Source: Phalacrocorax aristotelis
Lineage: Eukaryota > Chordata > Aves > Suliformes > Phalacrocoracidae
NCBI RefSeq assembly: GCF_949628215.1
Contig: NC_134281.1
Coordinates: 46,396,512 to 46,460,511 of the forward strand
Direction: 5' to 3'
DNA length: 64,000 nucleotides
The notes under the pieces were generated by a model. It saw nothing but the letters and a program-made list of their open reading frames with translations. It searched no databases and was not told the origin of the DNA. The position numbers and the translations under genes are program-made. Shown here in pieces: positions 7,563-19,500 of the stretch (its first letter is position 1; each line of letters starts with the position of its first letter).

Positions 7563-10500
7563 GTAAGTAGTACAGCATTTTCCATTTGTCTTAGAGGCAG
7601 CTCTGATAGTGCTGTTGAAAGCAGGAGAGAATCTGCAGCCCACTGAAGCATGACTAATCACTTTGCTAAAAAGCTCAGCACTCTCTAGTTTAAAGTATTT
7701 CTCCCCTATTGTTAACAGGAACAAATGATGATTTGTAGCAGATATGTAAGGTGTGTATTGTGTTCAGGTTTTAAGACATTTACTTGGGAACTACATCAAA
7801 TGTCAGGTTTCCTTGGAGCATGAGGGAAGTGTGCAACTTGTATTTTTGCTGCTGCTGGGGGTTGCACTGTGTTAATAATTCTTATTCAGAAAAGATGCTG
7901 AATAAATAATACATCTTATTTGTGCTTTGAGCTTCAACAGTGTTTTTTTCTTTGTCATCTTTCTGTTTCAAAGGAATATTTTGAAAAGGTTAATTTGTAT
8001 TGAATGGGGTAATTCTCCTGCATGACAAAAAACAAACAAAAAACCCAGATAAAATATTACTAGTCTAAATATCTTAAAACAGATGAGAGTATGTTTTATA
8101 TAGTGTTAAATATGCTGTTTGGCTCAGAAACAGAGTTTTTAAAAAGCAGGTAAGAATTGTAATATGTGTAAACAATAATTGGCAAAGTTTTAATTATCAC
8201 AGTAAGTAAGGCTCAGAATAGTTAGGCAGACGTGATATTGCATGTTCTATGAGTCGGATGCCAAGACTTGGTTAATCAATGTTTGCAAAGCACTTGAAGA
8301 GTCTCTTGGGTACAGAAGGATTTGCAGTGTTATCTGAAGTGTGATGACAACAACTGCTATGAACAGTGTCATATAATGTTTCTCTCAAATATATAATCCT
8401 GTTTTTCACATAATTATGCTTTTTTTTCTTTGCAGTCATTATTCTTAAAAACAAAACCAAACCACTGCTGCAGTTGGTGGTTATTACTGATGCTATCTGT
8501 TTCCTCTCTGCTTCCCTGTCTTTTCCTCAAGACGATAACCAGGACTCTGCTTTCTGTTTTATCTTTCAGCAGGCTGTGTTGTGCCATTTTTTTAAGGAAG
8601 TAGCATAGTTTCACAGAAACACAGAATGGTTAGGGTTGGAAGGGATCTCTGGAGATCATCTTGTCCAACCCCCCTGCTTGAGCAGACACACCTAGAGCAG
8701 GGGGCACAGGAGCGCACGCGTCCAGCTGGGTTTTGAATGTCTCCAGGGAAGGAGGCTCCACAACCCCCCTGGGCAGCCTCTTCCACTGCTCTGTCACCCC
8801 CACAGGAAAAATGTGTTTTCTCATATTCAGGTAGAAATTCCTGTGTTTCAATTTGTGCCCACTGCCCCTGGTCCTGTTGTTGGGCACCGCTGAAAAGAGT
8901 CCAGACCCATCCTCTTGACACCCACCCTTCAGTTATGTATAAGCATTGATAAGATCCCTCTCAGTCTTCTCTTCTCCAGGCTAAACAAACCCAAGTCTCT
9001 CAGCCTTTCCTCGTAAGAGAGATGCTCCAGTGCCCTGATCATCTTTGTAGCTCTCTGCTGGACTCCCTCCAGCAGTCCCCTGTCCTTCTTGAACTGGGGA
9101 GCCCAGATTGGGACACAGTGCTCCAGATATTGCCTCACACGGGCAGAGTAGAGGGGGACGAAAACCACCCTCGACCTGTTGGCCACACTCCTTTTCATGC
9201 AGCCCAGGACACCGTTGGCCTTCTTAGCCACACGGGCATGTTGCTGGCTCAGGGTCAGCTTGCTGTCCACCAGCACTCCCAGGTCCTTCTCAGCAGAGCT
9301 GCCTTCCAGCAGGGCAGCCCCCAACATGTAACGGTGCATGGGGTTGTTCTTCCCCAGGTGCAGGACCTTACACATGGTTTTGCCTATAGTTCCCCAGGTC
9401 CTCCTTCTTGCCCTTTTTGAAGACTGGAGTGACATTTGCTTTCCTCCAGTCCTTGGGCACCTCTCCCATCCTCCATGACCTTTCAAAGATGATGGAGAGT
9501 GGGTTGGCAACAGCATCCATCTGCTCCTTCAGCTCTTGTGGGTGCATCCCATCAGGGCCCATGGATTTGTGAGGATCCAGTTTGCCTAGGTGATCTCTGA
9601 CCCAATCCTCCTCAACCAAGAGGAAGTCTTCCTTTCTGCAGATTTTTTTGTCTCTCCTTGGCGGGCTGGGATGCCTGAGGGCCAGACTTAGCATTAAAGA
9701 CTGAAGGAAAGAAGGCATTCAGTAACTCTGCCTTCTTTGCATCCTGTGTCACCAGGCACCCACCTCATTCAGCAGCAGGCCCGGTCTTCCTGTTACTGCT
9801 GATGTATTTAAAGAAGCCCTTCTTGTTATCCTTGACATCCATTGCCAGATTTAGTTCCAAGTGGACCTTGACCTTCCTCCTTGCACCATTGCATGCCATT
9901 ACAGTGTTTCTGTATTTTTTCCAAGTGGCCAGTCCCTTTTTCCACATACTGTAAACCACCTTCTTCCATTTGAGTTTTTCTGGAAGCTCTTTGCTCATCC
10001 ATGCTGGCCTACTGGCTCCTTTGCTTGTCCTCTTCCTCCTAGGGATGCACCGATATTGAGCTTGGAGGATGTGATACTTAATATTGACCTACTCTTTTGG
10101 ACGCCCCCTACCTTCTAGAGCCCTACCCCATGGGATTCCTCCAAGCAGGTCTTTGAAGAGGCTAAAGTTGGCTCTAAAGAAGTCCAGGGTTGTAATCCTA
10201 CTTGTTGCCCTGCTTCTACCTTGCAGGATCCTGAACTCCACCATCTTGTGGTCACTGCAGCCAAGGCTACCCCCAACCCTCACATCCACAGTTAGTATAA
10301 GGTCCAGCAGCACATCTCACCTTGTTGGCCCCTCCACCACCTGTGTCAAAAAGTAATCTCCGATGCTTTGTAGAAACCTCCTGGATTTCACACTCCTCAC
10401 CATGTTGCTTTTACTGCAAATACCAGGGTGGTTGAAGTCCCTCATGAGAACGAGGGCCTGAGAGGCCTGAGGCGTGAGACACCCACAACAGTGTCACCCA

Positions 10501-16500: not shown

Positions 16501-19500
16501 CGTTACATGTTGGGGGCTGCCCTGCTGGAAGGCAGCTCTGCTGAGAAGGACCTGGGAGTGCTGGTGGACAGCAAGCTGACCCTGAGCCAGCAACATGCCC
16601 GTGTGGCTAAGAAGGCCAACGGTGTCCTGGGCTGCATGAAAAGGAGTGTGGCCAACAGGTCGAGGGTGGTTTTCGTCCCCCTCTACTCTGCCCGTGTGAG
16701 GCAATATCTGGAGCACTGTGTCCCAATCTGGGCTCCCCAGTTCAAGAAGGACAGGGGACTGCTGGAGGGAGTCCAGCAGAGAGCTACAAAGATGATCAGG
16801 GCACTGGAGCATCTCTCTTACGAGGAAAGGCTGAGAGACTTGGGTTTGTTTAGCCTGGAGAAGAGAAGACTGAGGGGGATCTTATCAATGCTTATACATA
16901 ACTGAAGGGTGGGTGTCAAGAGGATGGGTCTGGACTCTTTTCAGCGGTGCCCAACAACAGGACCAGGGGCAGTGGGCACAAATTGAAACACAGGAATTTC
17001 TACCTGAATATGAGAAAACACATTTTTCCTGTGGGGGTGACAGAGCAGTGGAAGAGGCTGCCCAGGGGGGTTGTGGAGCCTCCTTCCCTGGAGACATTCA
17101 AAACCCAGCTGGACGCGTGCGCTCCTGTGCCCCCTGCTCTAGGTGTGCCTGTTTAAGCAGGGGGGTTGGACAAGATGATCTCCAGAGTTCCCTTCCAACC
17201 CCAACCATTCTGTGATTCTGTGATTTGTTTTCAAGCAGGAATGAAAGTGTTCTCCAACAGCTCTCAAGAAAGAGCAGTGCTACAAGTTGATAACGATTGC
17301 GCCATAGTTGGGGAGCAGGCATGTGGCATAATTCCATAAGTGCCTAAAGATATTACTGATAATCCTCTTATTCAGCCATGTGATACCAACAACTGGGATA
17401 AGTCGTCATTCAGAATATTAGTTGTATTTATGTCATAAAGGCTTGTTAACTCCAACAATGTCCTGGGGAAAGTGCTACTGAGGGATCAAAGGAAAAGAAA
17501 AAAAAAAAGCTATCAAGCTTCTTCTGTATCCATTCATATAAAATGCAGACCTTCAAACTTCTGGCATTATGCCATGTAACTGGCAACTTGAATTTTATGG
17601 TTAGTATAAATAGCATAGATGACTGTTGTATTTGGTTGCATTTCTATGCCCATCCCAGCCCCTGAAAAAAAAAAAGTAAACTTGAGTGTTGATAAATACC
17701 AGCTGAGTAATAATAAACATTAATTATTATCTCCTTTAAATATTAGAAGCAGAACAGATGACGACATTGATTAAGGCAGGAGTGATTTGGTATCAGTAGC
17801 AAATTACTGGAGAGGGAAATTCCTTTTCACCGTGTATATGTGAAAAGTATCAATTTTCCTTTTAGTGCAGTGAATTTAATATGCATCTCCTTTGAATTTG
17901 AAAGCAAATTTCTAAAATTTTGGAAAGGGACTATTTTAGTGCCTTCCCTGTGCTCTGAATTTAAACATTTGGAAGGGTTTTAATCTTGTATTTATTAAAA
18001 TAAGTGTTTTTCTCTGTGCCCACTGAGGCTGATGAATAGTCAAATGAACAGGAACACTTCATCAGGCTAGCATTTTATAGTATGTTCATATTTTTCTGCT
18101 TTGCATTATCAGTCTACTGAGAGAATCATGGCAGAGCTGTCTTGACTCCACTGGATTTTAAACTAATTTCTCCATGATATGTCTGTTTTTCTTACTCATG
18201 TTGGAGATGAGATGGATGTTAGCATAGTTTGGGGCTCATAGTGCGTGCGGCAGCAGGTGATTTCCCAAAATGGCTTTTATGCTAGATTGGTTTAGAGGTT
18301 GGTTAGAGTAGCTTGTTAGGTAACCTGTGGACATGATGAGGACAACTAGGAATTAAGGACAGAGTAAAAAACACAGACTGAAGTGGGGTTTAAAGATGTA
18401 CACTGCAAATTTCTTCATTATGGCCAGCCTGCTCAGTGCCTCGTGTATTGGAAGTAGTAGCCCTTCACTGTCATTATGAAGGCTGGCAAGGGAAGCACCA
18501 GATATCTGTGTAACGCTATCTGCACCAGCACTAGGTTTTATTTTAATCCCTAGACCTCAAAATCTATATATACAAAAGTTAAGATGATATCATCACTTGG
18601 ATCTTTCTCTGGTGATTTTATTGCATAATGTCATTGAGAGAGGGTTACTTTAGATGTAGACAAGGTTATTTTTTGGTCTGGAAAATACTAACCAAACATC
18701 AGGGACTTCTGAGGATACTTAATGGTGTTTTAGTCCATCGAGCAAAAGAATTAATGTGTAATAATATGTGAATTGTTAGAAAACTTAAAGGGATCCAGGT
18801 CACCACAGAGAGTTATTAGATCATTAGATCATTAATGTAGGATTGTCTCAAGTTATCCTTAAAATCATTTTCCGGTTCAATCCGGGTATCAAAAGCTGGG
18901 GTGGCATGTGTATTTCCAGGGGAGAAAATAAATGGATTGAGGTGTCTTTAAAGTATGGCTTTAAAACAAAATCACTGAATCATAGTGGTTGAGGTTGGAA
19001 GGGACCTCTGGAGGTCACCTGCTTAAGCAGGGCCACCTAGACACGGTTGCCAGGACTGTGTCCAGATGGTTTTTTAATATCTCCAAGGATACAGACTCTA
19101 CAAGTTCTCTGGACAACATGTGCCAGTGCTTGGTCACCCTGATAGTAAAAAAGTGTTTCCTGATGTTCAGTCAGGGCATCCTGTGTTTCAGTTTGTGCCC
19201 ATTGCCTCTGGTCCTGTCACTAGGCTCCAATGAAAAGAGCCTGGCTCCATCTGCTTTGCACCCTCCCTTCACATATTTCTATACAGTATAGGAACCCCCT
19301 AAACTTTCTGTTCTCCAGGCAGAACAGTCCCAGCTCTCTCAGCCTTCCCTCATAGCAGAGAAGTTCCAGTCCCTTAATCATCCTCATTGCCCATCATTGG
19401 ACTTCCTTGAGCATGTTCTGAGGAGCTCAGAACTGGTCCAGGTGTGGCCTCACCAGTGCTGAGCAGAGGGGAAGGATCACCTTTCTCAACCTGCTGGCAG

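Follow-up and report, generated by a model that had tools for sequence, protein, structure and literature searches.

Three old CR1 copies that lie within 70 kb of each other on one chromosome, here termed A, B and E, very probably owe part of their likeness to non-allelic gene conversion, by which sequence passed between insertions of separate origin. The insertions are separate, the divergence along them changes in abrupt steps, and among the scored copies one tract is exclusive to these three neighbours, whose similarity is far above that of the other scored copies. Gene conversion between CR1 copies had been proposed in an earlier note on this DNA, and the genome-wide evidence now supports that proposal on stronger grounds than those first given. 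The partner distances are 6.4 kb (A to B) and 61 kb (B to E) in a genome of 1.28 Gb. A and B lie in the window, that is, the whole 64,000-nucleotide stretch analyzed; E (C6:46474479-46475027) lies outside it.

Divergence along the inverted copies A and B

The features of the two copies, with the evidence for each, are as follows:

8611..10944, minus strand: copy A, a long, dead CR1 with its 3' end at 8611 (CR1 hairpin and ATTCTGTG-type repeat at the 3' end)
8687..9706, minus strand: homogenised block in A (A/B alignment and change point)
8611..8686, minus strand: unconverted 3' tail of A (step position; comparison with relatives)
9381..9382, minus strand: deletion junction in A (A/B alignment; comparison with relatives)
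8758..9065, minus strand: tract in A shared with E (comparison with E; genome search)
16128..17223, plus strand: copy B, a 5'-truncated CR1, inverted, 6.4 kb from A (match to A stops at 16124 and 17223; flanks unlike)
16128..17147, plus strand: homogenised block in B, unlike A at 1 of 1020 bp (A/B alignment and change point)
17148..17223, plus strand: unconverted 3' tail of B, unlike A at 6 of 76 bp and starting at the predicted hairpin stem (change point; comparison with relatives)
16452..16453, plus strand: internal-deletion junction in B (comparison with relatives)
16769..17076, plus strand: tract common to B and E, 2 differences in 308 bp (comparison with E; genome search)
16123..16127, plus strand: ATTTG, left partner of a possible short target-site repeat, weak (partner at 17223-17227)
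17223..17227, plus strand: ATTTG, right-hand member of this possible repeat (repeat scan)

The arms 8611-9710 (minus) and 16124-17223 (plus) align over 1100 bp with zero gaps, bearing out the claim that they are free of indels. The block, which had been described as lacking any base difference, contains one (G at 16875 in B, A at 8959 in A), while the 3' remainder contains 6 differences in 76 bp, at precisely the positions the earlier note had listed (17148, 17152, 17154, 17188, 17202 and 17215). The best placement of the change point is between 17147 and 17148, and none of 20,000 shuffles of the eight A/B differences equalled the observed change point. Six of seven differences fall in the final 76 of 1096 bp (hypergeometric p = 6e-7; p = 4e-5 when any 76-bp window is allowed), and this clustering is not due to chance. 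The sharp step from 0% to about 8% that had been claimed is thus abrupt as described, with a body divergence of 1/1020 rather than 0 (95% interval 0.002-0.55%) and a loosely estimated tail divergence of 6/76 (3-16%).

The 5' side carries no such information. The mismatch between 16127 and 9707, taken in the earlier note to mark a second step, is real, and we rejected it as a conversion border: the B-A match ends three bases further out, where B's CR1 simply ends, whereas A's continues for about 1.2 kb beyond the block, to about 10944. At 16127, A has C and B has G, the state most often found in CR1 (7 of the 10 relatives that have a letter at this position). Upstream of the block, A contains about 4 stops and 2 frameshifts by eye count, and copies elsewhere match its 9708-10944 segment, at 77-80% where nearly the full length is covered and at 78-87% for longer pieces. 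This stretch, absent from B and E, has no close local relative among the 40 scored copies.

Both tails contain a predicted hairpin and end in a ATTCTGTG-type repeat. Amniote CR1 LINEs are described as having 5' truncation, a 3' hairpin and an octamer repeat (PMC4316615, PMC8665684), and one account of the family gives it no target-site duplication (PMC2169234); at B, the target-site duplication is a 5-bp repeat at most. The ATTTG pair has a chance probability of 1.3% with a fixed left edge and 8.9% in a looser scan; its TTTG is also compatible with ancestral CR1, and we rejected the repeat as strong evidence. The likeness of the CR1 pieces to ORF2 is putative and judged by eye. Pfam returned no CR1 domain in eight stop-free pieces or two X-marked read-through pieces, PDB matches were all weak (none better than E 0.73), and, for the queries used, collections of plasmid, phage, viral and bacterial/archaeal contigs contained no CR1 resembling these copies.

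A third copy and the genome-wide relatives

CR1 is a dispersed, high-copy family in this genome. A search yielded 12,396 first-look candidates, with similarity to B as the criterion of rank; 40 were scored, all of them matching, in 52 matched pieces. A and B are mutual closest copies in this search, and the other 38 scored elements comprise E, which matches at 95%, and 37 whose pieces match at 82-88%. A and B also share an internal deletion, with 514-583 bp missing relative to five relatives measured, that was seen in none of the 38 other scored copies: in 12 of these the match falls into two pieces with the missing stretch between them, and the rest match one side only. No other scored element spans the deletion as one piece; the main piece of L021 overlaps it by 23 columns, with its left piece separate.

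These data bear on whether A and B could be independent members, with different tails, of a young, deleted, non-autonomous CR1 subfamily. Such a subfamily would account for the shared deletion and shared frameshifts, but no scored element besides A and B crosses the junction as one piece; copies other than E reach only 82-88%, and matches to the tract beyond A, B and E only 90% at most (40 scored). The subfamily reading is largely refuted, and we regard its probability as close to negligible. Segmental duplication of A, B and E was likewise rejected because their flanks are mutually unrelated, with homology confined to the element; by comparison, the L017/L018 pair is explained by segmental duplication. 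Apart from CR1, nothing in the 9.5-kb stretch around E is similar to the window. E begins at B column 16669, so that the 5' ends of B and E differ.

Compared with B, E is a mosaic, with 2 differences in the 308 bp of 16769-17076 and 24 in the 241 bp around it (Fisher p = 1.6e-7); the CR1 bordering the tract is diverged by 15% on the left and 9% on the right. A genome search with the tract (6,692 first-look candidates) placed A, B and E at 99-100% and the other 37 of 40 scored copies at 90% or below. Thirty derived sites in the tract window are common to all three, and 13 of the 308 tract states occur in none of 19 relatives, a set that includes two near-identical pairs. A Sawyer-type run test on 22 copies gave global p = 0.0006 for A-E and 0.005 for B-E, with all other pairs at p >= 0.098; A-B fell outside its eight best pairs (global p > 0.88), a result that weighs little because A and B resemble each other so closely throughout. 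The E tract may represent two tracts, as its two differences occupy neighbouring positions (16839-16840). Private-state rates of 16/313 in B left of the tract, 13/308 in the shared tract, and 2/100, 4/62 and 2/73 in E outside it do not separate the donors.

The tails have a less simple history. Positions 17152 and 17154 were first polarised by two old CR1s in the window, a reading changed by the 19 genome relatives, which make C ancestral at both sites; the ancestral base thus persists in A, with T common to B and E. T at 17152 occurs in B, E and 1 of the 19 relatives, and at 17154 in B, E and none of the 19. With just 3 of 74 tail sites differing between B and E as well, the three tails cannot be read simply as independent lines, and an older exchange or chance is needed for this likeness.

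The mosaic also bears on an assembly or polishing artefact, in which the interiors of two similar repeats would share one consensus. Collapse can produce interior identity with differences near a unique 3' flank, and C6 contains at least one run of 88 N nearby (L048), so it may be a scaffold. Against this, the window contains no N, the block holds one difference (16875), the E tract is bounded by diverged CR1 and not by unique flank, and 700 bp inside B's other unique edge are difference-free, where collapse would have spared differences too. We consider an artefact very unlikely.

Probable conversion between neighbours and competing routes

Conversion would proceed as follows. A break in one copy would be repaired with a nearby copy as template, overwriting a stretch while each copy keeps its own ends and flanks. 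One A-B exchange would have homogenised about 1.02 kb, from the 5' end of B to the start of the 3' hairpin, sparing the final 76 bp in each. The internal deletion, present in one partner, was probably carried over to the other. In a separate exchange about 308 bp would have passed between the A/B sequence and E, and the change in A at the 16875 site would have arisen by mutation afterwards. We infer repair as the agent, B's earlier existence as a longer CR1, and the order and direction of events. The partners probably differed by roughly 8-13% before conversion. Divergence of this level is high for efficient conversion.

Alternatively, B may have been a short 3' CR1 stub into which about 1 kb was copied from A by replication or repair template switching (MMBIR-like), a strand begun in the stub rejoining beside it; B's body would then be a new copy and not a converted old one. 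This accounts for a block that begins where B itself begins on the 5' side, for the deletion common to both copies and for a tail left unchanged, and the copies have TTT in common at the 5' junction. On its own, however, it leaves the E tract, embedded in divergent CR1 on both sides, without an account, and the G at 16127, in place of A's C, hints at a native B 5' end. We judge templated insertion unlikely.

The step at the hairpin start also led us to consider that B arose when a transcript of A was recently retrotransposed and, during target-primed reverse transcription, the template was switched within the 3' tail. For a passerine SINE, CR1 reverse transcriptase has been suggested to switch templates (PMC5729268), and recent CR1 expansion is described in some birds (PMC8665684). 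This route requires that dead, deleted A was transcribed, mobilised in trans and landed 6.4 kb away (order 1e-5 if random). It cannot produce E's embedded tract, and the genome search placed all scored copies other than A, B and E at or below 88%. We rejected it as highly improbable.

Wider pattern and comparison with known systems

Conversion among neighbours, as preferred here for A, B and E, may be widespread for CR1 in this genome. Two further close CR1 pairs also show divergence steps, and for CR1 queries lacking a known partner (six chosen), all three that gave a result were best matched within 120 kb, 1-2% above the rest. A general rule, by which old CR1 copies tens of kb to about 100 kb apart keep overwriting one another, relatedness falls with chromosomal distance, and pairs that look young result from conversion and not from recent insertion, seems to us evenly balanced between holding and failing. 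CR1 copies serve for dating retroposon activity and, in bird phylogeny, as markers that are almost free of homoplasy (PMC2169234). If one neighbour overwrites another, ages estimated from divergence and claims of recent activity would be biased for clustered CR1, and deletions could move between loci. Inverted pairs such as A and B may be substrates for inversion, and the distance and divergence limits of ectopic repair templates become testable outside primates.

Conversion between neighbours is known for primate Alus, and CR1 is a new case. Non-allelic Alu conversion is reported to act within about 10 kb, weakening with distance (PMC8230782, PMC6598467). As with Alus, dispersed retroposon copies are homogenised patchwise, most strongly between near neighbours; unlike them, the element here is a CR1 LINE, the tract measures about 1 kb, a deletion of more than 0.5 kb is shared, the partners were probably diverged by the 8-13% estimated above, and one lies 61 kb off. 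Arm-to-arm conversion in the human Y palindrome P6, with reported tracts averaging about 2 kb (PMC3723533), likewise keeps inverted copies alike, but A and B form a small inverted repeat of two transposon insertions rather than a large duplicated palindrome, and one or a few events suffice. The copies described here resemble amniote CR1 in 5' truncation, 3' hairpin and octamer repeat; they differ in being dead and in having a mutual similarity that is not a gauge of insertion age.

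Alignment and anatomy of the two inverted CR1 copies

We aligned the arms of the inverted CR1 copies A and B directly.

~10944 to 8611 (-): A, a long CR1
5' end at 16124-16128 (+): B, a CR1 of the same kind as A, cut off

The alignment spanned 1100 bp, was free of gaps and showed differences at 8 sites (B coordinates 16127, 16875, 17148, 17152, 17154, 17188, 17202 and 17215). The mismatches listed in the earlier note were all recovered, but the homogenised block it had described as free of any difference contains one that was overlooked, at 16875. Clustering of the differences at the 3' end was far above chance (0/20,000 shuffles), and the 3' step coincides with the first base of a predicted CR1 hairpin stem. 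The proposed 5' border proved to be the mere start of B, beyond which just three more bases match A. At 16127, the G of B is the most frequent state (7/10 relatives with a letter there), and the C of A occurs in 1. An ATTTG 5-bp repeat, a weak signal, lies on both sides of B.

The part of A upstream of the block has matches among CR1 copies at other sites in the genome and carries, in a by-eye reading, ~4 stops and 2 frameshifts. Frameshifts inside the block were likewise read by eye on A and are common to B because the sequences agree there. Both copies also share an internal deletion: compared with the 5 relatives measured, each is missing 514-583 bp.

B sits between two exon-like stretches of what we take to be a TTC39A-like gene, with A immediately upstream of the first stretch found. 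The exon-like stretches of this presumed TTC39A-like gene (+) are at 12000-12113, ~20696, 25059 and 27620. Two older, diverged CR1 copies also occur near B, at 18972-19566 (-) and 20912-20972 (-), the first ~68% like B.

Genome searches and the third copy E

The genome searched comprised 1.279 Gb in 352 contigs, with the window at C6:46396512-46460511. With B as query, the best 40 of 12,396 candidates were scored, yielding 52 matched pieces, and among these 40 the full-query matches were B and A. The match of a third copy, E, started at query column 546, and those of the remaining 37 at columns 306-349. A separate left piece was present in 12 of these 37 elements, which therefore have the stretch absent from A and B; the other 25 matched on one side of the deletion only and are uninformative on it. 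Identity was 95% for E and 82-88% for every piece from the other 37 scored elements.

C6:46474479-46475027 (-): E, a CR1 copy 61 kb from B and 14 kb beyond the window

E is 5'-truncated at B column 16669 and its flanks are unrelated. Hand counts that exclude 4 gap columns put its differences from B at 15/100 bp to the left, 2/308 bp in the centre and 9/141 bp to the right, where 6/67 adjoin the common tract and 3/74 lie in the tail. Across 16765-17076, 30 derived sites are common to A, B and E, and 13/308 states in 16769-17076 occur in none of 19 relatives, a set in which L014/L015 and L017/L018 are near-identical pairs.

For columns 16669-17216, a Sawyer-type permutation test on the 231 pairs among the 19 relatives plus A, B and E returned global p values of 0.0006 (A-E) and 0.005 (B-E); over the two runs no other pair fell below 0.098. 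The A-B pair fell outside the eight best in these columns, and the test weighs little for A-B because the two are nearly identical across the whole tested range. Used as a genome query, the tract had 99-100% identity to A, B and E; none of the other 37 exceeded 90% (best 40 of 6,692 scored). Another 200 kb of neighbouring sequence, together with E's stretch, held three other matches to A (66-73%). The stretch of A absent from B and E had no local relative among the best 40 of 3,573 candidates, where its best near-full-length match (80%) lay on another contig and its nearest C6 match (80%) lay 1 Mb off.

Probable gene conversion and the tails

The copies were inserted separately, their borders are sharp, the tract is restricted to neighbouring copies, and the stretch that took no part in exchange behaves normally, all as conversion predicts. 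It also accounts for the deletion common to A and B, which would have been passed by conversion between two separately inserted copies. The tail pattern of A, B and E is not fully accounted for by conversion. B and E both have T at 17152 and 17154, where A retains the ancestral C, and T at 17154 was found in 0/19 relatives. A-specific changes occur at 17148, 17202 and 17215, and 17188 differs in all three (A in A, T in B, G in E).

Other local CR1 pairs and known systems

Among the 40 best matches to B, 8 pairs less than 100 kb apart were observed, against 0.12 expected if uniform; 3 are formed by A, B and E, and 1 is L017/L018.

C2:122638359 and C2:122646191, same strand: L014 and L015, a second local CR1 pair
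C2:35671552 and C2:35674808, inverted: L049 and L028, a CR1 pair
C35, ~40 kb apart, inverted: L017 and L018, a duplication

L014 and L015, 7.8 kb apart, share 99.5% identity over 772 bp; their 4 differences all lie within the first 131 bp (p = 8e-4), and their 3-kb loci have no match between them elsewhere. L049 and L028, 3.3 kb apart, differ at 4 of 817 compared columns, each of them within the first 48 (p = 1e-5); duplication is excluded here on the 3' side only, because L049 was compared without its 5' flank. L017/L018 is a segmental duplication that covers 3 kb or more, flanking sequence included, at 99.5% identity.

L027, chosen as a query because a near partner was already known, had its best match ~27 kb away (99%) and its second ~99 kb away (95%), with the other 37 at most 90%. 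Three queries had no previously known partner: the best match lay 32 kb away for L013 (93%; rest at most 92%), 115 kb for L016 (93%; rest at most 91%) and 39 kb for L022 (95%; rest at most 94%), margins over the rest of only 1-2%. The second-ranked match was also on the same chromosome for L013 (~92 kb) and L022 (~311 kb). These results are a strong hint, not proof, that conversion between nearby CR1 copies is general in this genome; they stop at a hint because CR1 density is uneven and duplication may lie behind L013, L016, L022 and L027.

A literature search found no report of conversion between CR1 copies, although it covered few subscription papers and leaves absence unproven. Conversion between neighbouring Alus within ~10 kb is established (PMC8230782; PMC6598467).
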